Shown here: in pieces, positions 1,676 to 63,330 of the stretch
Numbering within the stretch: position 1 is the stretch's first letter
Layout: every line of letters begins with the position of its first letter
Assembly: GCA_903813345.2 (NCBI GenBank)
Contig: CAIIXF020000010.1
Location: 11,785,181-11,849,180 of the forward strand
Length of the DNA stretch: 64,000 nt
DNA from: Owenia fusiformis
Lineage: Eukaryota; Annelida; Polychaeta; Sabellida; Oweniidae
Direction of reading: 5' to 3'
Made by a program: the position numbers and the translations under genes
Notes under the pieces: model-generated
Databases searched by the model: none
What the model was told of the DNA's origin: nothing
Seen by the model: only the letters and a program-made list of their open reading frames with translations

Positions 1676-4600
1676 CTGAAAGTGTAGGGAATCAACATGA
1701 AATTGATCCAACAATTCACAATAATTCATACTACGTATGTACATACAAGTTCCAAAGGGAAAGGATCAAGAATTATAACATAACACAGCAAGAAAAAGAT
1801 AACATCTAAGAGTATACCAAGCTAGTATTTCCCCCTTTACATATGTATAGATGACATAACTACAAAACACTTTATTAAACCATGAGTCAATACAATAACT
1901 TACCTGTCACATTGACAACAACATCCCCATCAGCATTCACTCGTGAAGACATCTCAGTATAACCACCTGTAAGCATAAGACGATAAGTGAGGATTCAAAT
2001 TTTTAGCCACTACAGCCTGAACTGAAGCATGTCCAATTAAACTCAAATCGTAATAGCATAATATTTTTCATCCATGCATTCAAATCTTATTTTTGTGCTT
2101 TTTTATCTAAGATCAAAAATAATTTATGGTTAATGATAGTGACATAACACGTAAACAATAAAACACGACAAATAAAATTAAATTGGACATACCTTCCATC
2201 GAGTCATGCTCATCAGCAACATGGGACCTTATGTGGGAGAGTGTGCTTGTGCGGAATTGACAATATGAGCAATAGTACATCTTGTCATCCTTCTGGGTGA
2301 CTGACTGTGAATCACAGGCATCTCCTACTGTCAGTTCAAGATCATCATGAGTGTACTCTACATTAGAGTCATGAACAGAATCTATGCATTCTTGCTTGAT
2401 TGTATCATCTAGGTTGAAGTCAGAATCCTGATATTTATCCTGAGGTTCAAGATTTACTTCATATTCAATGTCTAACGGTTCAGATTTAATGTTTTGTGTT
2501 TTCAAAAGATCCTCTGCTCGCTCAAAGTCTGGAGGATCTGTATTTGACCCAATCTGTTGGGCCATTAATGATTCATCACTACAGTCATGTTCCTCGATAT
2601 GTTGGTTTATTTCACTTAAATCTGGAGTGGAAAGGGAACAATTGTCTCGATGGCATAAATATAGCTTTGAAGACTTTTTTTGGAACCTTAAATGATTGTC
2701 CCTACAGGTCCAAGGAGTATCAGAGTGTGGATGGTTCCAAATAATATGTTGTTTCATATCAGGTATAGAGGTGACATCATTTCTACATTTAAGACACTGA
2801 TATCCAAAAGCCTCATGTTGCATTGCACTACTTGCTTTGAATTGCTTGCCTTTATATGACATCTTTTTCCTTCTTTTAGAATTCCCTTTTCCAGATTGTG
2901 ATGTGGTACTAAGTGGAATATTATACTCAAGATTAGGGGGAACCCAATCTTTCTCTAATGCAAGATTTGATTCAGAGAATTCAGCTGGCTCAATCTGTAT
3001 GTCTTCTTGTTCATGTTCGATAGACCTCTTAAGAAGACTAGGCATACCGTTTCCTGTTGCATCATTATCTATGACCCTATCTGAGAAATCTTTGCCATTA
3101 TTATTGCTAACTGGGTAGAAGCTTTTTGATATATCAGGTGGAGCATCATCATCTAGTTCCTGTTTAATACATTTTGGAGGATGGACAACTTCATTATCAT
3201 CATTGTTTGTAGTGTCAATTTCAGAATTGGTAAAGGAAGGAGTGAAAGAAGGGGTTCTCGATAAAACTCGTTGTTCACATATTTGTCTATGTCTTTCAAA
3301 TAATGAGTAGGCTGAGAAAGCTCGCTGACAAAAATTCTTCAGACAAAAAAAGACTTTACAACGCTGTCTATCAATGTACTTTTTTATATCTACAGCAACT
3401 CCAAAAGTTGAATCTAACTCTGAACATTCTTGGAGGTGATTAAACATTAACAATTCTGTTAAACGCATGTCCAAAGCACATGCTTCGACTCCACAGTGAG
3501 TGCATACAAGAATGCAATTACCAGTTCCAGTTGTCTTGCCCATAGATCGATATGAATCCATCGCGTTTCTTGCTGTAGCACAAATGCTAACTTTAGTTTG
3601 ATCTTGACATTTTTGAACATGTTTTTCATAAAGTATAAATCTAGAGAACATATTTTTGCAGTTCAAGCAAAAAAAAACTTTGCAAGCCTGTTTTCCAATA
3701 TGGTTTCTGATATCTACAGCCACTCCCATTGTTTTATTTTTACAACAATCCTTTAGATGATCTAGCATCTTAGTCTTGTGTCTAGATACTGTAAGAGCAC
3801 GTGTTTCAAACCCACAGTGTGCACATACGAAAAGGCAACTGTTTTTTAATTGTCTCATGCCTAAGGATTTATATGATCCTAATACATCCTTAGCCTTTCC
3901 ACAAAGTGATACATGAATGTGTATGTCTTTCCTCACTCTTTTTCTCAGTTCATTATTTCCTGGAGTGTCTATTTTCCTCTTATTCAGGAATTTAGTTTCT
4001 GTCTTTCTATATTTTTTCTTTCTTGGCTTGGGGGTATAGTCTTCATCATCAGAAGATGGAATGTATTCAGAGCTTGGACTTTCATCTTCAGTCTTGGATC
4101 CGGAGTCAGAAGAATTTTCTAGTTCATCATCAGGAGATACAATGAGTGAAGGTTGAATAGGTATCAGAGCTTCAGCATTGTCTTGTTTATCATATTCTGC
4201 TTCCTTGGGGTCGTTGATTTTGTCCAAACGCTTCAGTCCTCTTGGAGTTAAAACATACTGTGGCTTTGATGCCTCTTCTTTCTGGACATGTGGAATTTCT
4301 CCTTTGACATCATCATGATCAACTTTAGTGACAGTAGAGAGAGAAACAGCAGTTTTCACATTTGGATCTTCTGCGATATTATTACAATATTGGGTCCACA
4401 GAGACGGGTGCATGGATTGAATGTGAAGAAGTATACCAGTTTCCTGATGTTTAATAAGAGAGCACTTCTTACATCTGTACAGGAATGCAACATTGGAAGC
4501 AAATTTCAAATTTTCCCCATGAGTCTTATAAAAATGCTGTTCGACCTTCTTTATGTGCAAAGCTGCAACATCACACAAGCCACATTGGAAGGCTACATCG

Positions 4601-7600
4601 TATAGGGACTTTGTTGAGTGAATAAGCAAATGTTGGTCCATATTTTCAGCTTTTACTTTCACTGCACATATCGAACATTCATCTAGATTAGTAATTGTGG
4701 ATTTGGCATCAGAATCAAGTGATGTTGTAGATAAAATAGGCAAGTTGATTTCTTGTTTGTTGCCAGAGTAGACAGGAACAGCAGCAGTATTTAGAACTAT
4801 CAGGGGCGAATTTGTATTGACTGTTTGAATGACATTTGTTGATTGTTGTTTGGTTGGTGTTTTGGAATTGCCATTGATCGGATCCTTCTTATTTGAAGAT
4901 TTGTATTTAGTCACTTTTATTGCACTGATAACTTTCCCGGGATGATGCAATCTAACATGATTTGCAGTACAAATATGATCATGGAACAATTTGAAACAGT
5001 ATCTACACTTCCATGTAACATAGCTTTGTCTAGGATCAGATAAACCTGGCTCTATAGCTGTCTTTGATTTGATGTCTGTGGGGGATAAGTGTTCAGATTT
5101 GCTCTGCGTATCTGTTATAGGAGCTGTTTGATTTGAAGCTAAAACATTGAGGTCAAGCAATGCATTCGGAGATAATTCATTTGCTTGGTTTGTATTTCCA
5201 TACTTGTTGCTTGTACTCAAAGATTTTTCTGAACCCTTTGCTTGGGCTGCAGTCTCTAGGTCTCCAATGTGAGCTGGATCAGAAACTGTTGCTTGGTCTG
5301 AATTTATGGTCTTGAGGTCAGTTCTTAAGGGTACATCAGAACTATTTGTCTGGACACTTTTGACATCAGAATCATTTGTTTCATCTTTAGTATTAGCCTT
5401 AAGGTTTCTCCCTAAAGACACTACTTCATCTGTAGCCACAGACTGTAATTCTTGAGCTAAAGATGTATTGAGGCCATTTGCTTCTTCTAATATTTGATTG
5501 AGCTGTGGATATGTATCTGGCACACTTGCTTTTTCTTCTTTTTTCTTCGTTGTATCAACATGTTTTACTGTAATAACAGGTAAATTGTGTTTTTGTTGTA
5601 AATGATTGTCATACTCTACTTCTGTGAAGAATTTCTCTGAACAGATATGGCAACTCATCGGAGGAGTGGAGGATGGTGATTGCATTACCTCTGTATAGTT
5701 ATGATCATCACAATTTTTCAATTTATCAATCAAATCATCATACTTGCTTTTAATGATGGAGTTTTGCATAAATTTAATTCTTTTACAGCCATGCTGTTTC
5801 ATAACATGAGCTAAAACTCTGTATGGAAGCTGCTCATTTCTATATGAATTAAACTTACACAAAAAACACCCATACATCAAAGATTTTCTAGCTGTAAATG
5901 ACTTATGATGTATATGGGATTCCATTTCTTTCATAGTCATTTCAGATGCAGTATTGCATTCAACACAGGAGAATTTTGCATCCTTAATTAATTCTGTGTG
6001 AAAGATCATAATGTGGATGTTCAAGACATTTATATCATGATTTTTGAAAGAACAGAATCTGCATTCTTCTGTTGCATTACTGCTGCAACCATGCCATGTA
6101 GTGACATGGCTATATAAAGATTCACAACCAATAGTTGAGAATGTGCACCACTTGCATTTCATACTCATATCTTCAATACTAGTAAGCACAGACTTTTTAG
6201 CAATATCCTTTCTTTCTCCATATGAACCAACTCTGGCAACATTTTTTCCAACAATCTCTCTTTCTTCCTCTAATCCATTTATTTCAGCAGAACAGAACTT
6301 ATGCTGAGTTGCATCTTTATTATTATGTTGAAACAAATTGTGCTGGAGGATTTCGAGCCTTGTAAAACCAGCGTAATTACAGAATTTACACATAAAGACA
6401 TGTGTGGCTACATGCTGGTTGAATAAAGTTGAATCAATACATTTGAACTTGCAAAAATTGCACCAAAATTGTTCTACCTCTTTATCTGTTTGGTGAACTG
6501 CTGTATTGAGAGCTCTTGTAATCCCACATACACGTTTAGGGTCACTCTCAACGATATCAGCATATGACATTGTATTGACACTTATCCTAGGTGTTTTCTC
6601 CTCCAATTCTGAGTTGGTTGCATCTTCTTCAATGCTGTGAATATCATTTTTGACACCTAACAAAGAGAATATATGAGGGTTATTTACTGGTTAATTTTGG
6701 ATATAGGGTTTATCCCGAGCGAAATTTATTAGATATTTTCAGAGGAATAGATAGTTTAAAAGCAAAGGATAGGTATCCATATGGTGAACTGAATTCAACA
6801 ATGTTTTTCTCTTAAACCAATTACTGAAAACATTCTGTAAAAAAACACGGTCCTTTATGTAAATATATAAGAACAAGTGCCAAAGGGAAAGGACCAAAAG
6901 TTGTAATGGAACTTTGCAAGAAAAAGCAAACTCCAAGTGCACACCAGTCAAGAAAAACAAATCCCATATAGCCCAAAACCATGATCTAACGTGAAAAGAA
7001 ACAATGTCCAATACCCCCTTCACCCACCATTCAAGAACCAATATCACAATCCAAGACCAGAAGACCAAGGGGCATTTCATTCATACTGAAGTCATTACAA
7101 TACATGTTGAAGAAAAAATTAGAAATTGATGACCAATACTCATAACCTCAAAATTAGTTGAAGATACAAGTACTCATACAAGATTGAGCATTCAGTCTCA
7201 AATGATGTGGGATAGATAAAATCCAGTATCCAAGTCCATAGGCGTTTCAAAGGGTCAACATCAATTCACTAAAGCCGCCGCCATAATTCATAAAACACAA
7301 TAATTCACAATGGTCATCAGGAGAAAACTATGGCTGGTTTCGATCCCTATTTCTCAACCATTAATGCCATAGCCGGGATCTACCTCAAAAGGTGCCAAGT
7401 GAAAATATTGTGAGTTCAGCACCAATGTCTTAAACAATTCCTACATCCTTCAGCATCTCAAGTGGTAAAACTTGAAACTTAGAAATTAATGATTTGTATT
7501 TTTCAGCAAAGCCCAGAAAGTATTTCTTAAGCTTTATACAAGTATAACCTTGACCTAACAGTTTGATCACTAAAGTATTGTGTCTTGGCTTAAAATCTAA

Positions 7601-34496: not shown

Positions 34497-34556
34497 GTAA
34501 TTGTTCCATACTGGCAAACTATCTACAATATTGTGGTCATGAAATCTAAAATATCA

Positions 34557-35150
34557 ATGTTCCATAGCCGGCAGATCCACCATTCACAATCTCATTTGTA
34601 TAACCGGCAGCTCCACCATTCACAATATCATGTTCCATACCCGGCAGATCCACCATTCACAACTTCTCATGTTGTACAAACGGCAGCTCCACCATTCACA
34701 ATATCATGTTCCATACCCGGCAGATCCACCATTCACAACTTCTCATGTTGTACAACCGGCAGCTCCACTGTTCACAATATCATGTTCCATACCCAACAGA
34801 TCCACCATTCACAATCTCATTTGTATAACCGGCAGCTCCACCATTCACAATATCATGTTCCATACCCGGCAGATCACCATTCACAACGTCTCGTGTTGTA
34901 CAACCGGCAGCTCCACTATTCACAATATCATGTTCCATACCCGGCAGATCCACCATTCACAATCTCATTTGTATAACCGGCAGCTCCACCATTCACAATA
35001 TCATGTTCCATACCCGGCAGATCCACCATTCACAACTTCTCGTGTTGTACAATCGGCAGCTCCACTATTCACAATATCATGTTCCATACCCGGCAGATCC
35101 ACCATTCACAATCTCATTTGTATAACCGGCAGCTCCACTAATATCATGTT
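34557..35150. repeat. minisatellite, alternating ~36- and 37-bp units
   Basis: About sixteen units of the form (A/C)TCCACCATTCACAA followed by TCTCATTTGTATAACCGGCAG, TATCATGTTCCATACCCGGCAG or CTTCTCATGTTGTACAACCGGCAG. Adjacent units alternate, giving a ~73-bp higher-order repeat. Degenerate units continue to about 35330. The frames translated through it (HHSQYHVPYPADPPF and similar) are artefacts. Confidence 0.9.
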
Positions 35151-38147: not shown

Positions 38148-39716
38148 TTTGGTGGTCGGATTGCTTGTTTGTTATTGCTTACCTGATTGTCTGTAGTGGT
38201 CGGATTGCTTGTTTTTTATTGCTTACTTGATTGTTTGTAGTGGTCGGATTGCTTGTTTGTTATTGCTTACTTGATTGTCTGCAGTGGTCGGATTGCTTGT
38301 TTGTTATTGCTTACTTGATTGTCTGTAGTGGTCGGATTGCTTGTTTTTTTGCTTACTTGATTGTCTGTAGGGGTCGGATTGCTTTTTTGTTATTGCTTAC
38401 TCGATTGTCTGTAGTGGTTGGATTGCTTGTTTGTTGTTGCTTACTTGATTGTCTGTAGAGGTCGGATTGCTTGTTTGTTATCGTTACTTGATTGTCTGTA
38501 GAGGTCGGATTGCTTGTTTGTTATCGTTACTTGATTGTCTGTAGGGGTCGGATTGGTTTTTTGTTATTGCTTACTCGATTGTCTGTAGTGGTCGGATTGC
38601 TTGTTTGTTATTGCTTACTTGATTGTCTGTAGGGGTCGGATTGCTTGTTTGTTATTGCTTCGTTGATTGTCTGTATAGGTCGGATTGCTTGTTTGTTATT
38701 ATTTAGTTGATTGTCTGTAGAGGTCGAATTGCTTGTTTGTTATTGCTTCGTTGATTGTCTGTAGAGGTCGGATTGCTTGTTTTTTATCGTTACTTGATTG
38801 TCTGTAGTGGTCGGATTGCTTGTTTGTTATTGCTTACTCGATTGTCTGTAGTGGTCGGATTGTTTGTTTTTTATTGCTTACTTGATTGTCTGTAGTGGTC
38901 GGATTGCTTGTTTTTTATTGCTTACTTGATTGTCTGTAGTGGTCGGATTGCTTGTTTGTTATTATTTACTTGATTGTCTGTAGAGGTCGGATTGCTTGTT
39001 TGTTATTGCTTACTTGATGTCTGTAGAGGTCGGATTGCTTGTTTGTTATCGTTACTTGATTGTCTGTAGTGGTCGGATTGCTTGTTTGTTATTGCTTACT
39101 CGATTGTCTGTAGTGGTCGGATTGTTTGTTTTTTATTGCTTACTTGATTGTCTGTAGTGGTCGGATCGCTTGTTTATTATTGCTTACTTGATTGTCTGTA
39201 GTGGTCGGATTGCTTGCTTTTTATTGCTTACTTGATTGTCTGTAGTGGTCAGATTGCTTGTTTATTATTGCTTACTTGATTGTCTGTAGTGGTCGGATCG
39301 CTTGTTTGTTATTGCTTACTCGATTGTCTGTAGTGGTCGGATTGTTTGTTTTTTATTGCTTACTTGATTGTCTGTAGTGGTCGGATCGCTTGTTCATTAT
39401 TACTTACTTGATTGTCTGTAGTGGTCGGATCGCTTGTTTATTATTGTTTACTTGATTGTCTGTTGTGGTCGGATCGCTTGTTTGTTATTGCTTACTTGAT
39501 TGTCTGTAGAGGTCGGATTGCTTGTTTGTTATCGTTACTTGATTGTCTGTAGTGGTCGGATTGCTTGTTTGTTATTGCTTACTTGATGTCTGTAGTGGTC
39601 GGATCGCTCGTTTGTTATTGCTTACTTGATTGTCTGTAGTGGTCGGATTGCTTGTTTGGTATTGCTTACTTGATTGTTTGTAGTGGTCGGATTGCTTGTC
39701 TGTTATTGCTTGCTTG
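38148..39716. repeat. large minisatellite, ~44-bp unit, about 35 copies
   Basis: The unit is GTGGTCGGATTGCTTGTTTG then TTATTGCTTACTTGATTGTCTGTA, with single-base variants (TCGTTAC for TTGCTTAC, AGAGGTC, GGATCGC). It spans nearly 1.6 kb. The variants occur in patches rather than at random, for example GGATCGC copies near 39170-39480. The open frame at 38231-38458 is repeat read-through. Confidence 0.93.
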
Positions 39717-39799
39717 ATTTATGATTTTGGAAAGCAACACATTCAAAGAATAGTCTTTTCACATTGCACCGAATGCTGCTTAAAACCTTAATCTAAGAA

Positions 39800-44034: not shown

Positions 44035-47000
44035 GTATGTTTATATCTTAAAAGTGCCAAATGTTTAATGTAATGTATTAAGAAACCAATTAATCTAGTT
44101 AATTTCAATTTAGATAAAAGTTTAAGTTGTAGTACATCATTCATTTGAATTCAACTGAATTTAAAGCTTTATCAGGTGTAGTCTTTTATAGGTCAGCAAT
44201 CGATAAATGGCTATCTATTACATGTTAGACATTAATAAATAGATACAAACATCCATACTTTTAACAGCAATGTAATTCAAATGACTTGTCAAAGTATGTT
44301 AATAATGCAAGTGAGACGTCAATATCGTGTTTTTTGTTTCCATGGTTCCACACATTAAATTTACTGGATGAAACATTCTCAATGTATCCAAACACATAAG
44401 TGACATTTACTCACTCCCCATTGTTCATCAATTTTCTTTTCACTGTGGAAGATGAGTAATAACATACAGTGAATAAATACATTGTGATCATTTATTGCAA
44501 ATATACCACTTTTAACTTTTGAAAAATAATGATTGGTCATAATGTGATCATGATATCATTTAACACTAAAAACAAGAGAATCATTTTGATTTGATTATAA
44601 ATCACCATTTAATATATACTTTAAAGTTAAGAAATAAGAATGTCCTAAAAATCTGTCACTTAGCTTTACAACTTTTTAATAGCAGAGTAGGCTATATATA
44701 AGTATAGCTTCGATTCATGTGTTTAAATACTTGTTTTAGTACAAAAAATGTAATCACCCCAATAGATGCTGAGTCAAGGTTGAAAGAGTATATGTTTATG
44801 ATCTTTCACCTATTCATCTTTTTTTTTTTTTTTAAAAGGGCTAAGATGAATCAGACCATGTAGAAACTGTTTTTAAATCCCAAATCAACGAAATGACACT
44901 CAGGCCTGTAGTCAGGATTTGCCAAGGGGGGTTCCCTTTTTGAAAAATTTCAGGGGGGTTCACTTTGATAAATATGGCCCAAAAATGGCCAAAATCATTT
45001 GAAAAATGCTCAGAATGGTGAAAAACTGCATGATTTTGAAAAATAATTTTTGAACCCCCCTGGCTACGGGTCTGACACTTAAATTAATGGATTAACATAG
45101 AACTATATGAATGTTTACATTCAATCAGACAACTAGGAAGCTACACTATTTAGATTTTATTTACAAAATAAAATGATGCACTATGTTTAAAGTATGATCA
45201 AAATTTAAAACCATTTAAGTCAAATAGAATATGTCTGAATTCATCACTCAATGTTCCTGCATTTTTTAAGTTTTCACAAAGCATTGGTAAGATTTGTATT
45301 TCACAATAGCAACCGATCGCCAATAATAATATATTGTATTCTAGATAATCCTGAATTGTAAGTCCAAGAATTCAAAACTTAAATTTCTTTCTATAATTTG
45401 ATATGCTATGTTATGATATGTTACGTTAGGTTACTTTATGAATGTTTTTTTGTTTGTTTCTAGGTATAGAGTTTGCAGAGTCCCCCACTTCCGTTACACT
45501 AAGGAGGTCAGATAGCCTATATTGGCCATGCTCAGCCAAACCTAGCCCAGGGGAACCAGATCAATCATTCACCTATAGGTAAACTCTCTTTTTTGGCAGA
45601 CTTTTTTTTTGACATAATGAATGGTATCCATTTTTAAAGATCCTAGATGTTGTACCAAGTTGAAAATCTATTTTAATTTTAATTTGGAAAACCATTTAAG
45701 ATATGATAGAAATTCTAACGAGGTTCTAGGATTTTGGTACAGAGCAACTGTTAAAACCATTCTTAATATTAGAATGGCAAGAGCCAAGGTTAGAGTGACC
45801 CAAATATGTTAAGTTGGTTTAACTATTTTCGTTGCATAAAAATTTATTTATTTTATGTCCCTATAATATCAAAACACAGTTGAATAACAGTTGGAGGTTT
45901 CTATAAAGTCAAACAATATGTACAAATATGTCGATATAAACAAGTAATATATTTAGTATGTACCATTGATTAATATACTGTTTTGTAATATTTTGGCATG
46001 CTCTGGTCCAATTGTTATATAATACTGTTCATCAAGAAATACATGTGAAAAGATGCCAAAACTATTTTTTAATAATATACCATGATGTATCCCACACCAC
46101 AAGAATGTGCATTGTGTACTACCTGTACATGTATGATTACAGTAGAAATTGCCAATTGTGATATTTTGATATCACTTGTTTGAACAACCCTGTGTGCAGA
46201 GTCTAGTTATAAACTACCCTCTGCCTGTATAGACTAGATTACAGTTTAGCAGCCCTGCCCACATGGCCTGTGACAGCCTGGGTCAGAAATCATTTCAAAC
46301 CTAGCAAGCTGACCTGTTCACAACCAATCAGCGAGCTGGAAAGAACACGCGCTAAATACATGCTCATTAACTATATGCAATTATGTCAGAGAAAGTGATC
46401 ATATATAGAATATCGTAGATTTATTTCTTCAAAAAACTCTGTTTGGCTCAGTGAATTCAGAGATTTATTTTAAACTGAAAGAGTGATGACGAAGCCTATA
46501 GAGCTATTAAAAGTAACTCTCTAAGAATAATTGTCATTCATTTTTCATTTAAAGAGAAAATCATTGCATGGGTGATATTCAAAAAAATTGAGATTACATG
46601 TGTCATGATTACAGCTAGGGGCTATGTCATGTGCTATACTTATTTTGTACTATCAAATTTCACCATTGTGTGACATAGCTAACAGTTGATGGATTTATAT
46701 TTGATACCACCAACAAGATAAATGCATGTGCATGAGAAATCTTTGTTTTCACTGAGAGTCGCATTTGTCAATTTGTCAAATTCCTCATAACTCAATTTTC
46801 TGTATATTGACAATAAAGACCTCTCATAAAACAACCTGTGGCTTTAGTGTAGTATTAGGTCTCTAGATCCCCTTTGCCTCCAGAACCCCTCCTCTAGTAT
46901 GTACATGTGTAAAGGAGGTCCCAAGAGATAAAAGCAAGACTAATCTATAGCCCTAAGTAAGCTTATAGTACAATGGAGTGCAGTACAGTGCAGTGCAGGG

Positions 47001-50000
47001 GAGCACAGTGTAGTACAAAGCTGTGCAGTGCATTGCAACATAGTACAGTGCAGTATAGTGCAGTACAGTGCAGTGCTAATTATAAAAACAGTGCAGTTAA
47101 GTGCTGAACAGTGCAGTAAAGTGCTAAACAGTTTAGTATAGTACTTTGCAACACATTGCAGTGCAGGGCAGCACAGTGCAGTACAATGCTATGCAGCACA
47201 GTGCAGTGCAGCATGGTGCAGTGCAGTATAGTACAGTGCACTACAATACAATAAAATATTTTATATTATAAAAATACAATACAGAACATTACCAGAAATT
47301 CATAATTTCTTTACTTATAATTTCAGTTGGGCATACTACAATGCTTCTGGTATCGCTGACAGTGTTCAACCTTCAACATACTCCAATGGCACGCTATATG
47401 TGGAGAGTATGTCCAGTGATTTTGCAGGAAGGTACAAATGTTCAGCTAGCGGAGTTACAACTGGAGATGTGATCAAAACAGACTTGGTTACACTTGGATG
47501 TAAGTAAAATAACGACGTCGTTATCGGAATTCTGTGTCCTGCCTTATTTCATAATTCAAGCTTTGTCCATTTCCTGATGTGGCAGAAGCATACATGTTTC
47601 TTTGTTTGTTTACATACATGTTTCTTGTTGCTTGTTTATTTGTTTGTTTGTTTATTATTTGGTATGAGCATAATGTGCCAAAATCTAGTAGCTCCAAAAC
47701 TTTTACTTTGTATACCAAAAAATATATTAAGAATTCATTCAATTACACATTCATTCAATTAGCATCATCACATTCAAAACTTCCATTAAGGGCAATATTA
47801 AGGAACACCAATACAAACAAACCATATTAACTGATTAAATCAAATCAAAACTAGTTTTATTCAGTTCTACAACCATAAATTCATGTTTCAAGGCTCATCA
47901 GTGACATAGTCTTGTTTACTAAACTTAATAAATAGTTTCAAAACCATGTGCTGAATTCACCTATTTATCTACTGTAATCATGTACATCTTCACCCGTAAT
48001 AAAACATTCCAAGCTCACTTTCAAATGTCAAAACCATTCAACTGCATATATCTACTATCAGTTTGCCAAAAGTTATAGTAAGGCACAGAGAAAAGTTATA
48101 ATAGGGCCAGTTGGATCAAAGAGGATCATATCAAAACAACAATCTTTCCCTAAAGGCACGGTGTTGTTTTTAATTTGATAAATAGAATTGATACATATGG
48201 TACTTATCTCCCTATAAAAATGTGTTGCTGCTAAGGTATGATGATACATTTAATGAGTGAACAGAAACTAAAGATAACTCTCCTTCCAAAATAAGTTATC
48301 ATCAAAATGTATGAACTTTGATGTGACCCCGCAGTGTCACCAACAGCTAAAATGATACAAAATGATAATTATAGGAGTCAATACTGTACTCTAATTAACA
48401 AGTGTCATCGTTGTTAATATAGAATGCCGAGTTATTCTTTGCTTCACCTTCCCTTGACACAGATCAGATTTCCCAATGTATAATTTCTCCCATTTCATTT
48501 ATTTATTTTCAAACATCTGGTGAAAAATACAGATAAGGTGGATGACACCACCCTAGTGAGCATATTATCCACACAAAGAAGATGAACATGATTAATAAGC
48601 AGAAATGTAGCCAACGAAGAGAAAATTTTCATGAATACAAATCCAAAATGCCCATTCATTGGTCTTATATTTGGACATTTCAGTATGGCTTTTGGGAATT
48701 ATTTTGGTTGGTATGGGAACACATTGAAATTTGGCAGATTGGTATGGGAAGATATTGATATTTGAAGGTTCAGCCTAAGACCCCGCCAAATTTTATATAC
48801 AGTGAACCCTCCCCCCTCCGGGTACGACTTATATCATTTTATTTTTTAGTCTTCATTATTACATATCTAGTTTAGTAGGCCGATTGGACAACAGATAATT
48901 ACCATGGAGATGAGTTCTTTGCCAATAAGTTACTGTGTCAAAATTAGAAAGTTATGATTTATTTTATAGTATGACATAATTTGAACATGACACTCTGAGT
49001 GGGTGTATCAGTGTCTATATCAAATATTTTGCATGAACAGCCAACTTAATATACTTTGTCAAATATTTTTCATGTTTTGTATGTACTGTACAGGGTGTCC
49101 CCGAGGTACACCCTGTAATGGCCTGCATATATACTTGCATTTAAGTTCCAATCACAAGCTAATAAGCTTATTTGGTTGAAATATTATTTTGTCTTCTATG
49201 CAAAAAGTGATTTGATTCAATCAAAAATCTTAATTTTTGAAAATCACTGCAGCCAACTTTAAAGGAACATATAATGTCTTATGATTTGGCTAGTAGACAG
49301 CCAGTGGTTCGGACACCACCTAGAGATTCATTCTTGTTTTTTAACCAAATGATTGTGATTTTATTATCATGTCAACTTTACACTAGAGCTTTAGTGATTG
49401 TGTTGGCTGTATGAAAATCTAAAAATAATATGTGTCGAAATATTGCATTTTAGAGTAATGCGCAGGTTTAAATGTGTTATTTTATAGTTTTTATCATAAC
49501 AGGAAAAATAGTTGTTTTTTAATTAATACTGTTGTCCAATATTTTCAGAAATAGTTGTCTAATTAAATGGGTATTCAGTTTAAGATTAAAATCACATAAG
49601 CCATAAGCAATTGGTGCTAAATAGGAAACTGCTCAGAATGAATATCACATTCAAAATGATCTTATCTCTTATAGCTCTCTATTTTAATAAAACATTATAG
49701 ATAATACAGAACATGTAAAGTAAATTCTGCAAAGTCCAGTTTTCACTGATTTAGTATGAACCTCTTTTAGTTGAACACCTCCCAAGTAGAATATTATTTT
49801 TAGGGTAACCAAGGCATTCCACTCATACAAGTGTTTTAAAGTTATGCCTTTTCAGGATTGATTAATCTCTCGCTCCGTATCCCATATCTTTTGCTTCGGA
49901 AATTATTTTCATGACCTCAAACTGTTATACTTACATTGACATAACTGAAATAGGTAGTGGTTACTTTGAATGTATCTTCTATTGTGTTTAATAAAACATT

Positions 50001-53000: not shown

Positions 53001-56000
53001 ACCACAGACTATGCATTCTTCTGCTCTGTTGCATCCTACCCCGCTGCCACCATAGAGTGGAGATATGATGACAAGCCAATAAATGATAGAGATAGTGATT
53101 GGGCAACCATCAACACCAGCGAGGATGAACTTGTTGTGTCTACAACATTGGTTTTAAAATATCCCACTCATGCTAGATGGGGTGAATACAGGTGTTCTGC
53201 GACTAATGACTACTTGCAGGTGCCTTTGCTTAGTGACATTGCTGAACTCAAGATTTCAGGTACGAGGACATCTTTCTAAAGTGAACACATCAAAATGTAA
53301 ACATTTTCAGTCAGTTGATCCAAACTCTGTATGTTGGCTAAAATGTACTCATTGATATGTAAAAAGGTGATTATTATTTCTCATGAGTTTTATTTCTATG
53401 TAGAAATTCAAAATGGTCATCCTTTTTCGGAAAAAAACACAATCTTTGATAACTCAAATACCAAGTGCTGATACCAAGGGATAAAGGACCTCTGTTCTAG
53501 AAGAAATTTTCAAGATTTACTTATTTTGGCAAATATGTTCCAGTCTGTCAAATACACAAGAGAAAATAGTTGAGTGTCGTGCTGATGTCTCACCTAAATC
53601 AATTATAGAAATGTTAAATGGGCAAAAACCTATGACTTTCAAATGTTTCTAACATTTCCAGGTAGCCCAGGATTCAAGATCTCTCCACAGACAAGTGACG
53701 TAAATGAAGGCAGCACAGCAATGTTCAGATGTGTAGGGAAAGGTATGACAGAACCTGACCAATACTGGGCCTTCAAACCTGACGGCAGTGCCACATACAG
53801 TGAGATATATGTGAGTATACATGGTTAGAAAAAGAGAAATTAGTGCTGCAATAGAGTCAGTATTATAATATGAAATCAATTGGTCGAGTTTTAAGAAAGC
53901 AATTATAAATCCATTGAATAACACATCACAGCGTAATTTAAAGATTAAAATTCTAAAAATTAATAATAATAACAGTTGTTATTGTTGAAGTCATGTAACA
54001 TCTTATTGTCTCCTGAGGGAGAAACCAAAACATTGTCTCCCTATATACCAAATAATATATACAGTTGTTATTGTTGAAGTCATGTAACATCTTATTGTCT
54101 CCTGAGGGAGAAACCAAAACATTGTCTCCCTATATACCAAATAGTCATGTAACATCTCATTGTCTCCTGAGGGAGAAACCAAAACATTGTCTCCCTATAT
54201 ACCAAATAATATATACAGTTGTTATTGTTGAAGTCATGTAACATCTTATTGTCTCCTGAGGGAGAAACCAAAACATTGTCTCCCTATATACCAAATAATA
54301 TATACAGTTGTTATTGTTGAAGTCATGTAACATCTTATTGTCTCCTGAGGGAGAAACCAAAACATTGTCTCCCTATATACCAAATAATATATACAGTTGT
54401 TATTGTTGAAGTCATGTAACATCTTATTGTCTCCTGAAGGAGAAGCCAAAACATTGTCTCCCTATATACCAGTTGACTATAAAGCAATAGGGAAGCATGA
54501 GGCCGTGGGTTTCACTAATATAGCATTTTACTTGCAGTTTAAATTTTCTTTTGAAACAAGCCAGAGATTTTAGTACAGGGTGACACAAATGCAATGCTGT
54601 AGATTTTTTTTTTCACCCTGTAATTGCTGTTAGTTCTGATATGGACAAAATTTCAAAGGGTGACCACCAATTTACTTTTTTCACATTACCTACAAAAACA
54701 TAAACACTTGTAGCGGCTTTGTTGAAGCATTATCAGTTCCTTGGATGAGAAAATATTTGCAGGGTGAAGAAAATGCAAATAAGTAGAATGGCCAAATAAC
54801 AAGGAATTTTGTGTTTGTCTCAATCCATTCAATCTCACCTGTTTTATTTGATACTTGACCATTTTCCTTACCTCTTTTGTAGCCCAACGACCCCAATAAT
54901 ATGACGTATCTATATGTGCACAATGTAACATCTGATGATGTTGGGTCCTATAGATGCAGTATAAACAACACAGATGGAGAGAGAAATGCTGAAGCTAATC
55001 TTACGCTAGGTAAAGTAGTTGATTAAATCACGTTTCTTAAATATCTTTAACATATTGACCCAGTCCTTTGTCAGAGGTTTGTAAAAAATGAAAGAATTTC
55101 GGCAACCATCTTGAATGACGCTAACTGCAGTTAGAGTCATCCAGCTGTGGAACAGTGTTTATGGGATAACATTTAAATCTCTACAATGTAGTTTGATTTA
55201 CACCATATAAATTCAGTCTCCTAAAAAGCGATTAAAGGAACATTCCTTGCCAGACTATTTCTCTCCTGATATGGTAGCTACAATTATATATATACTTTAC
55301 ATATTTAGCAAAACACGGGAAAATGTTTTCATATGGTCAATATTGATCATTTAAAAATGTAGTACTCATTCCCAGTAAGCTGCCATCTTTTCAGATTTTT
55401 TCAGGAAGTGATGTCATCGACTCTCACCTGTTATAACCTTGTCTATTACAGTATAGGAAAGAAGTACAAAATCACTTTTAAACAAGAAGCCCTTATCTTC
55501 TGTGTAAAAATATTTTCGGGAGTTGTCAACTTAGAACTAAAGAAGAGATCATCAAAAGGATTTTAATCATAGACCAAATTGAAAAAAATATTCAGCTGGT
55601 TTAGTAATTCTAATAGCTCCTTACCTAATGTTATATGCAAAGTTGAGAGTCGATGACATCACTTCCTGAGTGAAATTTTAAAAGATGGCAGCCTACTGGA
55701 ATTGAGCACTACATTTTTAAGTGATCAATATTGACCATTTCAAAACATTTTTCTGTTTTTTGATAAACTTGCAAAGTATGTATATGGTTATAGCTACCAT
55801 ATTAGGAGAGAGATGGTCTGGCAAGGAATACCCCTTTAAATGACTCAAGTTTTAGATGCTGTCCATACTATGGCCCAATTTAATGACATCATTTAACTTG
55901 TTCTAGTGGCCTATGCACCTGTCCTTGAAGATCCAATAGTGAACCAGTTTGCCAATCTTAGAGATGCAATCACATTGACTTGTTCTATAAGAGGGGCACC

Positions 56001-57380: not shown

Positions 57381-59545
57381 CAGGTGTCAAGGTAGCAGAT
57401 CTAATTCCAGTCCAGTATAGGCTTGTTGTTGGATCAGGATGTTGGTAGTTTCTCACAAAGGTGGCCCTGGAAATAACCAGACATGAAATGTACTGTATAG
57501 TACAGATAGAGGTCACTGCATGCCACTTTGCAACAGTGGTTGATCCAAACTGCAAATCTCCATGACCCGAATCTGGCATGGGGCAATCATTCAAACTAAC
57601 TATTGAGAAACATGCACTTTGTGTCAAAAGATTTTAGGATACATAGTTTATAGATAAAAAAATTCAAAATTACATCAGTTACAATAATGCTTGAAATTCA
57701 CAGTTTGACGTTAACAATTTTATTCTTGCTTTTCAAAATGACTGCCTCCTGTTAAAACTACCACACATGTAGGAATTAAAGCTGCTAGGAAACAATTTAG
57801 GGAGAAAAATGTCCAAACAAATGTTACGTCACTTTTTGAAGTGCCCATTTGTGCTATTTTATTAAGGTCACCTCAAATCTAATTGCTTAGTGATCTAATA
57901 TAGGAACATGGTCAGTAACTTACACAAACACTACATTTCCAACACTCTGGTCTGGGGCCTGCCAGTTCAAAGACACCTGCGCCGCATTCAGTCTGTCTGA
58001 GTGTGACACCGTGCTGTTGTCATAGCTACATGCCATGTGTTTGGTCAAAGTGGGGAGGTTGGTCCATGTCCCTACCACTGTGCTTGCCTCATCACGTGCC
58101 TGGATCATGAATCCTTTAAATCTCTGACCATCTGAACTAGAAATGGTAACTGGAAATAAAAAGACTCATTCATTTGTAATTGTAAATGCTGATTCTAATT
58201 TTGTCAACTCTGATTCATTTTTTTCTTTTTTTTCAGTGTAACAATTAATTAACATTACATTTACAAAAGGAAGATATGATAAACAAATGTTTGTTGTGTT
58301 GTCATATGGTAAAAGGTTAACATGCTATTTTGAGTAAAACTTCAGTTTGGTTCAACTCTGATTCTACATTTGGTATAAACTGGATCAGCTTAACTATGCA
58401 ACCCATTACTGTGTTACACTAAACTATGTTGCACATTACTGTGTTATACTAAACTATGTTACACATAACTTCATTACACAGCACTTCTGCACAGTTCTTC
58501 CATCCAAAATACTCTACTACATATCAAATTAAATTTATACTGCACAATATAACATTACATTAAGGTGGTGGTGTACCATCTTGGTTCACTCGGCTCCTGT
58601 TGGTCGCAGTGAATGCAGCAGTAAGAACGGAGCATGCGAAGATGCTTGGTTGTTTACCCGGAGGTTTAAGAATTACACTTCGATAAAGGGCATATATTTT
58701 TTATTCTCAAATGACCATGACATAATTATGCTTTATAACCAAATGAAAAAATTTCGAAAATTGTTGATTCCTATGTTGGAGATTCAGAGGCTGTTTTATT
58801 GAACGGCAGTTAAAGAAATCAAGTCGATTTTAAGAAAATATAAATCATAGGTCACTAACTTGTTTTTTGTCATTGCTCTTAAAAAAACAGTATGTGTTTG
58901 TATGATTTTTTCTAATATGTTGCTAAGTACCAAAGTGCATCAAAAATACTTTTAAGTGACAATACTGAGTATTATAATTCATTAAATATATGTACATCAA
59001 AATTATTTTTCAATATTTTAAATAAATCATTTTTCAAAAGTGAAATTTACATGCTAAACACTCATCAAATCATTGCACCTATGCTGTAGCCTGTATGGTG
59101 CCACTTGATGGTGCTTCAGTAAACTGCTTGCTTAAGTCTACAAAACAAATATATCCAGCGATCTCCTCACAATTTTTTCTCAAGTGCGTGCAAAATTCTC
59201 ATTTTCACAATTCAGACCAACATTTGTCAAAATATGCCCATTTTTCATGATTTTTTCATTTTCAAGTGGGTACAAATGAATTCTCAGGTGGTTCTCATGT
59301 TTTTAAAACCTCAGATGGGTGCTGCGCCCACTTGCTTTAATGCTGGGGAGATCACTGATATCCTTACCTTGCACTTGCTGTCCTGGTGAATAGGTTGGAA
59401 CATTGACATTAATTGTAAAAGGTGATCCGGGTTGTGATTCTGAACCGCCATGCAATGGTCTCAAGTCTTCACATGCTTCTATAGGGGGACCAGATGGGAA
59501 GGCTGCCACTCCACTTACAAGACTCAATAAAATTAAGCTTATCAT
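57376..59545 (-). CDS. Reeler-domain secreted protein A (defense-protein-like), three exons
   Basis: The exons 59545-59368, 58149-57924 and 57466-57376 (178, 226, 91 nt) give 164 aa plus stop; junctions CAAG/GTAAGG, TTTCCAG/TTACC, TTTGT/GTAAGT and TTTCCAG/GGCC keep the frame. The signal peptide is MISLILLSLVSGVAA with probable cleavage before FPSGPP. The mature protein has the Reeler pattern: FPSGPP..AC, VPTYSPGQQVQV, FKGFMIQARDE, VGTW, ACSY, TVSHSD, WQAPD..VGNVVFVATFVRNY and a short tail. This single-domain form matches arthropod and other invertebrate putative defense proteins (Hdd11-like). The Reeler fold is also found in reelin and in ferric-chelate-reductase-like proteins, but no DOMON or cytochrome domain follows here. 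The biochemical role is unproven. It is a tandem paralogue of the gene at 61556-63330. Confidence 0.9.
58150..59367 (-). other. intron 1 of Reeler gene A
   Basis: 1,218 nt. It holds a degenerate ACATTACTGTGTTACACTAAACTATGTT simple repeat (about 58380-58560) that corresponds in position to a similar repeat (62270-62450) in the paralogue's intron 1. The remaining sequence has no recognised feature. Confidence 0.5.
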
Positions 59546-61555: not shown

Positions 61556-63330
61556 TTATTCAGGTGTCAAAACACCAGATGTAACTCCAGTCCAGAATAG
61601 GCTTGTTGTAGGATCTCCCCCTTGGAAGTTTCTCACAATGGTGGCCCTGGAAATAATCAGATATAAGATGAACAAAGACATACCCAGGATTTTTCAGGGG
61701 GCTCTATTTGCGTAATAATCATAATATTTCCCGCAAAAATATGAACCTCGAGTTTCATCTATGAATTCTGGGTTAATCCCCCCTCTTAATTGATAATTTT
61801 CAAAATGATTGCCTCTTTTGTTGACAGATCTTTCAGTATGTACTTAGTTCCCATGGTGCTATTATATGTTAGGTCCCCTGAAATCACTAAATAGTAATAT
61901 AATTTAATAAAAAAGGGACAAGTTTAGTTACTTACACAAACACTACATTTCCAACATTCTGGTCTGGGGCCTGCCAGGTCATAGAAGCCTCCACCACATT
62001 CAGTCTGTCTGAGTGTGACACCGTGCTGTTGCCATAGCTACATGTCATGTGTTTGGTCAAAGTGGGGAGGTTGGTCCATGTCCCTACCACTGTGTTTGCC
62101 TCATCACGTGCCTGGATCATGAACCCTTTGAATATCTCACCACTTGAACTAGCAATGGAAACTGGAAGTATATTGACTCATTTGTTTTATAACAACTACA
62201 TTTATACCACTGATTCTAGCTTTAGCTTTTTAACGACCTGAGGCGCTGCATGACATGTTACAACATTATATCACACTATATTACACATTTCTGCATTAGA
62301 CAACACTGTATTACACATAACTATACTACATTATATACATTCTATCACAACACTATGTTACACATTACTACATTGCACAACACTATATCACATATTACAT
62401 AATACTATTTTACTGGATTAGACAACATTATAAGTTATTGAATGATTTGAAGTGCAATACAGGATATATTCTGCTCGAGAAATTCCGTATTGGAACGAGA
62501 CAAAGTTGAGTGCCAATATAGAATATCGAGACAATATATCCTGTATTGCACTTCAAATCATTCAATAACAGTTTTATCGTGTGATCCTCTGTATTGCTAC
62601 TGAGACAGTCCCCTCCGTACCAATATTTTCTGTATTACTTTTATTTACTTCTATTCCACACACATCAAAAAGAACTCATTTCAAAATGTGAATGACAATG
62701 AGATAATAATATGAAATATTATATCATAAATATAATTCATTACACTACACAATATTACATTACATTATTACAAATACATGTACTCACCTTGTAGTTGCTG
62801 TCCTGTTACACAAATATATGTACTCACCTTGTAGTTGCTGTCTTGTTACACAAATATATGTACTCACCTTGTAGTTGCTGTCCTGTTACACAAATATATG
62901 TACTCACCTTGTAGTTGCTGTCTTGTTACACAAATACATGTACTCACCTTGTAGTTGCTGTCTTGTTACACAAATACATGTACTCACCTTGTAGTTGCTG
63001 TCCTGTTGCACAAATACATGTACTCACCTTGTAGATGCTGTCCTGTTACACATATACATGTTCTCACCTTGTAGATGCTGTCCTGTTACACAAATACATG
63101 TACTCACCTTGTACATGCTGTCCTGTTACACAAATTATGTACTCACCTTGTAGTTGCTGTCCTGGAGAATAGGTTGGGACATTGACATTTACATCATAAG
63201 GTGCTCTCCCTGGCTGTGATTCTGCACTATGCATGGGAGTCATGTCCTCACATGCTGATGTAGGGGGACCAGATGGGAAGGTCACCACTGCACTCACACT
63301 CACAAGAATCAATAAGATAAAACTCAGCAT
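61556..63330 (-). CDS. Reeler-domain secreted protein B (defense-protein-like), three exons
   Basis: The exons 63330-63147, 62161-61936 and 61646-61556 (184, 226, 91 nt) give 166 aa plus stop. Junctions are CAAG/GTGAGT, CTTCCAG/TTTCC, TTTGT/GTAAGT and TTTCCAG/GGCC; exon 2 and 3 lengths are identical to gene A. The signal peptide is MLSFILLILVSVSAVVT before FPSGPP. Reeler landmarks: SACEDM, VPTYSPGQQLQV, FKGFMIQARDEA, VGTWTNLP, MTCSYGNSTVSHSD, WQAPDQNVGNVVFVATIVRN and TSLFWTGVTSG. Two Cys (one per half) are conserved with gene A and may pair. The donor of exon 1 lies at the edge of a 40-bp array that repeats it nine more times into intron 1. Function is inferred as in gene A. Confidence 0.9.
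61936..62161 (-). CDS. central Reeler exon of gene B
   Basis: 226 nt, phase 1 in and phase 2 out. It encodes SIASSSGEIFKGFMIQARDE through WQAPDQNVGNVVFV, the core of the domain, and matches gene A's exon 58149-57924 nearly base for base across GATCCAGGCACGTGATGAGG and CCCCACTTTGACCAAACACA. It differs mostly at N-terminal (SSGEIF versus SDGQRF) and central (VVEASMT versus AAQVSLN) positions, a pattern compatible with local divergence after duplication. Confidence 0.88.
62435..62568. mobile_element. 134-bp hairpin element in intron 1 of Reeler gene B
   Basis: The arms TTATTGAATGATTTGAAGTG then CAATACAGGATATATT and their exact complement at the other end give ~36-bp perfect inverted repeats around a ~60-bp loop. 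It is absent from the corresponding intron of gene A, so it inserted after the duplication. Confidence 0.85.
62771..63166 (-). repeat. 40-bp tandem array copying the exon 1 splice donor
   Basis: Ten units start at 62771, 62811, 62851, 62891, 62931, 62971, 63011, 63051, 63091 and 63131. On the minus strand each reads (C)AGGACAGCAACTACAAG followed by GTGAGTACATGTATTTGTGT. The unit nearest exon 1 contains the real exon end and donor (63146-63147). The other nine lie in intron 1 and all keep GTGAGT. Units differ by only one or two bases. Confidence 0.93.

Follow-up and report, generated by a model that had tools for sequence, protein, structure and literature searches.

A tandem array repeats the first 5' splice site of a predicted Reeler gene ten times in Owenia fusiformis

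The window analyzed here is a 64,000-nucleotide stretch of the Owenia fusiformis genome (assembly GCA_903813345.2, contig CAIIXF020000010.1, positions 11,785,181 to 11,849,180 of the forward strand). On its minus strand we predict a three-exon Reeler gene, gene B (63330-61556), next to a paralog with the same exon plan, gene A (about 59545-57382). The exon borders of gene B are predicted from GT/AG signals and paralogy:

63147..63330, minus strand: coding part of gene B exon 1, from an open reading frame and its likeness to gene A; it holds a leader-like start and the beginning of the Reeler domain
62162..63146, minus strand: gene B intron 1, as predicted from donor 1 (985 nt)
61936..62161, minus strand: gene B exon 2, homologous to gene A exon 2
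61556..61646, minus strand: coding part of gene B exon 3, with the stop codon

Joining exons 1, 2, and 3 through donor 1 gives a complete Reeler protein of 166 residues. The spliced product matches the Pfam Reeler model PF02014 with an E value of 5.8e-30 and a score of 105 bits, against a curated cut-off of 21, and covers profile positions 1-126 of 131. By this model it is a Reeler-domain protein, with the domain at residues 27-144; its N-terminus is leader-like by eye. A search of the protein against viral_contigs returned 47 pattern matches and no relatives, and a search against PDB sequences returned two matches at chance level (E 0.28 and 0.71).

Two further features of the gene were noted. 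The leader part of exon 1 (63288-63303, minus strand) reads GTGAGTGTGAGTGCAG, which contains two further GTGAGT motifs and a CAG. Intron 1 contains a perfect, hairpin-forming 37-nt inverted repeat with a 62-nt spacer (62434-62569), which we take to be possibly MITE-like.

The border between exon 1 and intron 1 lies in a tandem array that repeats the splice donor. Counting donors from the exon outward, the features are as follows:

62770..63164, minus strand: 40-bp tandem array, 10 copies (Tandem Repeats Finder score 685, and a further repeat search)
63141..63146, minus strand: donor 1, GTGAGT, native, placed as the single donor of gene A; 166-residue product
63102..63107, minus strand: donor 2, GTGAGT; adds 39 nt, keeps the frame, inserts 13 residues (179 aa)
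63062..63067, minus strand: donor 3, GTGAGA; weaker predicted U1 pairing, frameshift, 91-residue product
62782..63027, minus strand: donors 4 to 10, GTGAGT, every 40 nt; any one gives an 88-residue truncated product

Tandem Repeats Finder reports a period of 40, 9.9 copies, and 94% matches. The first-pass annotation had described the 40-bp unit as the end of exon 1 plus the start of intron 1, and had proposed that the array multiplies a 5' splice site at this border of a Reeler gene. Both points are borne out by the copies and by the period: the unit consists of the last 18 nt of exon 1 and about 22 nt from the start of intron 1, and ten donors could be located, with G+1 at 63146, 63107, 63067, 63027, 62987, 62947, 62907, 62867, 62827, and 62787. 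The 18-nt exon tail CAGGACAGCAACTACAAG is exact in four of the ten copies, including the exon's own, and the others carry one or two changes. All ten copies have AAG/GTGAG (the slash marks the splice junction). The donors do stand ten in a row, as had been stated, but they are not uniformly GTGAGT; donor 3 reads GTGAGA, leaving nine of ten. The step from donor 1 to donor 2 is 39 nt, because the intronic part of copy 1 is one base shorter, and the remaining eight steps are 40 nt.

The copies differ at seven aligned positions, plus one net base in copy 1, and copies 7 and 9 share all 40 nt. Several variants are common to neighboring copies: A at -16 (copies 6, 7, and 9), T at -8 (copies 2-4), and A at +11 (copies 7-9). 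Minisatellite units range from about 10 to 60 bp, and with head-to-tail units and partial homogenization the array is a minisatellite, one whose unit includes a splice donor. The copy number of minisatellites usually, but not necessarily, varies among individuals; ours is a single sequence.

Chance does not explain the array donors. Between 62101 and 63300 on the minus strand, GTGAG followed by T or A occurs 12 times (ten in the array, one in exon 1 at 63297, and one in exon 2 at 62140), whereas 200 dinucleotide shuffles gave 1.7 on average and never more than 5. The array also holds 10 of the 14 occurrences of AGGTGAG on both strands of the whole window. Nine donors, donor 1 among them, are predicted to pair with U1 at -12.1 kcal/mol; the value for donor 3 is -9.6 kcal/mol. 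Both strands of the window together have 7,064 GT sites; predicted pairing reaches -12 kcal/mol or lower at 11 of them, nine of which belong to the array. Since nine donors are alike at -12.1 kcal/mol, strength alone does not single out donor 1.

Tandem arrays of other kinds occur elsewhere in the window. A 44-bp array at 38152-39719 has about 36 copies with 91% matches, and an array with periods of 76 and 149 at 34550-35138 is overlapped by plus-strand stop-to-stop frames of up to 245 codons. At 53962-54471 an 89-bp array includes a 65-bp variant unit; the part at 54143-54471 has 98% matches and has perhaps expanded recently. A degenerate array rich in AGTGC/TGCAG (46967-47245) ends about 80 nt upstream of an apparent acceptor at 47326, which has many CAG motifs nearby and whose exon gives a weak, sub-cut-off immunoglobulin match. 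There is also, at 2113-6690 on the minus strand, a stop-to-stop open frame of 1525 codons, with sub-cut-off matches to C2H2 zinc-finger models.

Comparison with gene A, which the first-pass annotation had suggested and had described as having a single donor, agrees with that description:

59368..59545, minus strand: gene A exon 1, with the single donor AAG/GTAAGG at 59367

This donor occupies the same place in the coding sequence as donor 1 of gene B. When the array unit was compared with gene A, we found one exon-1 donor and no array; the sole match with E below 1 was gene A's own junction (59385-59366, 18 of 20 nt), and a further 9-nt match (58465-58457, E 5.8) is due to chance. Because gene A has the exon tail and junction without the array, the unit probably derives from that junction. 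The genes are 85% identical over 338 nt in the exon 2 region. Across exons 1-2, dN is 0.133 and dS 0.221 (NG86), and the ratio near 0.6 is consistent with mild constraint on the protein. A value this high does not prove maintenance of gene B, and the average also takes in the period that preceded the array.

These comparisons suggest how the array may have formed. It would have been seeded, after genes A and B parted, when a stretch spanning the exon 1/intron 1 junction of gene B was duplicated; this is the simplest history, the alternative being loss from gene A. The array would then have grown by slippage or unequal exchange, which the variants shared between neighboring copies fit. Because such a seed would have included the splice donor, the array now contains ten near-equal U1 sites. 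The first roughly 800 nt of the gene A intron, from the junction onward, show no match to gene B (blastn, E 0.01). A 28-nt match of 89% joins the sequence right after the array (62767-62740) to gene A 58562-58535, about 800 nt from the gene A donor; this match suggests that the intron starts of A and B were rearranged differently.

To see what each donor would produce, the spliced products were translated. It had been claimed that using the next donor would shift the frame and using the third next would restore it, and translation contradicts both statements. Because the first step is 39 nt, use of donor 2 leaves the frame intact and lengthens the Reeler domain by 13 residues, GEYIICVTGQHVQ; the 179-residue product scores 93.2 bits with the Pfam Reeler model, versus 105 for the product of donor 1. 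Donor 3 shifts the frame and ends after 91 residues. Donors 4-10 all yield one common product of 88 residues, because a TGA lies inside donor 3 itself, and restoration of the frame through the third-next donor is rejected. For donors 3-10 the stop falls 216-505 nt before the last exon junction. A stop well before the last exon junction is the usual geometry for nonsense-mediated decay (NMD).

Taking these observations together, we think it probable that a minisatellite was seeded at the exon 1/intron 1 border, that donor 1 is the productive one, and that the nine extra donors are rarely used. Productive mRNA would come from donor 1 (63146), the first and exon-proximal donor, and the others would be little-used competitors. 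Leakage to donor 2 would give the 13-residue in-frame insertion, and leakage to donors 3-10 would give truncated mRNAs, expected to be cleared by NMD. In splicing, the array is probably mostly ignored.

This expectation for donor 1 draws on minigenes described in PMC9225289, in which, as in the array, a single acceptor faces competing 5' splice sites that are identical. Five minigenes that combined a pair of equally strong donors with 365-nt introns on either side were spliced exclusively at the upstream donor. According to the same paper, about 60% of all human events favored the downstream donor, as do short introns; among strength-matched events the upstream donor was preferred in 60%, which is only a bias. 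Gene B is a long-intron case, its intron 1 measuring 985 nt when counted from donor 1 and 626 nt when counted from donor 10, so donor 1 would be expected to dominate. This is an argument by analogy: the minigenes are engineered, with two donors on an internal exon in transfected cells, whereas the array is natural, with ten donors on a first exon. SRSF1 can shift the choice among neighboring donors, as reported in PMC5585400, so donor use in gene B could also be regulated.

Two other ideas about the array are not supported. The first is that RNA structure masks the extra donors. All 100 shuffles of the 410-nt array RNA fold better than the array RNA itself (z +3.39), and three shorter stretches give z values of -0.19, +0.22, and +2.80. 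Predicted donor accessibility is mixed: the donors rank between percentiles 0.08 and 0.78 of the region's 6-mers, and donor 1 (0.49) lies above six of the nine extra donors and below three. The second is that selection preserves the donor and the exon-like part. In copies 2-10, three of the 21 columns in the exonic 15 nt plus the 6-nt donor are variable, compared to four of the remaining 19, numbers too small to tell the two apart.

Alternatively, the downstream donors might be used often. Array length would then set the share of unproductive mRNA, because donors 3-10 give premature stops, and hence the dose of protein. The stop positions given above have the geometry usual for NMD, and in predicted U1 pairing the native donor has no advantage over eight of the nine extra ones. 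We nevertheless consider frequent use of the downstream donors unlikely, given that the identical-donor minigenes with 365-nt introns described in PMC9225289 used the upstream site only. It is quite improbable, in our judgment, that a length-variable array acts as a dose dial, with the copy number of each individual setting the share of mRNA that decays and the 39-nt step keeping an in-frame isoform.

We also considered recursive splicing, in which donor 1 would be spliced to the AAG of a later copy, so that a donor forms anew at the joint and the array is removed stepwise, leaving no trace in the mRNA. By eye there is no pyrimidine run before the AAG, and the copies lie only 39-40 nt apart, too short for most animal introns; with this spacing judged too short, at least two copies would have to be skipped at a time. 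All ten copies do carry AAG/GTGAG, and AG/GT is the motif used by models of intron gain through tandem duplication, as given in passages of PMC3443670, yet we consider this route very unlikely.

An unspliced array could also serve as a platform for U1. U1 snRNP recruited close to the promoter would help transcription or block early polyadenylation, and the concentration in the array of nine of the window's 11 strongest predicted sites (-12 kcal/mol or lower, among 7,064 GT sites) would suit such a role. Against this, gene A has no array, and the mechanism is a general one; we give it a similarly slight chance.

The first-pass annotation had further proposed that the units could act as cryptic microexons, each with a CAG just before a 15-nt, five-codon piece in frame. 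Inclusion of CAG/GACAGCAACTACAAG/GTGAGT cassettes would add GQQLQ-like repeats. The coding part of this proposal holds: the 15-nt pieces are in frame and open, encode GQQLQ, GQHLQ, or GQHVQ, equal the exon's own tail exactly in seven of ten copies (counting the exon copy), and are followed by a strong donor. The CAG is less general than stated. It is present in six of the nine intronic copies and is CAA in copies 6, 7, and 9, so that the acceptor AG is kept in six of nine. Over the 17 nt that lead up to CAG or CAA in copies 2-10, pyrimidines make up a share of 0.41-0.53 and form no run, and these acceptors look weak. The predicted exon 2 acceptor has a share of 0.53 by the same count; the copies thus overlap it, and the difference rests, by eye, on its ACTTCCAG end. 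Pyrimidine share alone does not rule out the 15-nt pieces as exons. Copy 2 as a microexon would require a 24-nt intron, and copy 3 a 64-nt intron; moreover, any insert would sit inside the Reeler domain (residues 27-144). Inclusion may be possible for some copies, but as a prediction for the array we find it highly improbable.

Finally, it is scarcely credible that the array is an assembly artefact, absent from the organism or wrong in copy number; short tandem arrays are prone to miscounting, and the identity of copies 7 and 9 over 40 nt means that a small miscount could have occurred, but copies that differ at seven aligned positions, plus one net base in copy 1, are not a single copy repeated by error.

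We return to a minisatellite with donor 1 as its productive donor, and to how such an array compares with known systems. Zhuo et al. have reportedly described introns that come from tandem arrays. New introns have been described that arise when a tandem duplication spans an exon/intron border (PMC4974935 and PMC3443670). The potato duplication in PMC3443670 resembles the array in crossing an exon/intron border and copying splicing signals, and the array copies carry the AG/GT motif of the general model given there. For intron gain of this type, the duplication has to supply both the AG and the GT that bound a new, spliced intron; AAG/GTGAG is present in ten of ten copies, as read from the DNA. 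In potato, however, the duplication spans the intron 1/exon 2 border and gave one new intron, whereas gene B has its 5' border tenfold, with no new intron shown.

The [D] stwintrons of Lipomyces are another point of comparison. A [D] stwintron consists of two introns removed in two steps, the internal one having its own acceptor and interrupting the donor of the external one. As described in passages of PMC7138796, a first-intron donor is thought to have been duplicated, giving neighboring donors in one intervening sequence, as in the array. The suggested Lipomyces duplication is 4-7 nt with one extra donor and experimentally confirmed splicing, whereas that of gene B is 40 nt with nine extra donors, known here from sequence. 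The array does have repeated donors; acceptor contexts between its copies look poor, judging by composition. The minisatellites in intron 1 of earthworm metallothionein genes share with the array their short units, their position in a first intron, and their occurrence in a gene with a tandem duplicate, but a unit containing the exon/intron border is not described in the passages of PMC12783039 concerned. A literature search for a many-copy 5' splice site array found none among the passages it returned; some search terms with "5" may miss the prime sign.

The rules by which exon-proximal or intron-proximal donors are chosen have been studied through engineered pairs and a survey of human events (passages of PMC9225289). 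With near-identical donors in tenfold, nearly fixed spacing, and one acceptor, the array is a natural test of these rules. It may also be an intermediate predicted by tandem-duplication models of intron change, in which splicing signals are multiplied before a new intron is fixed.
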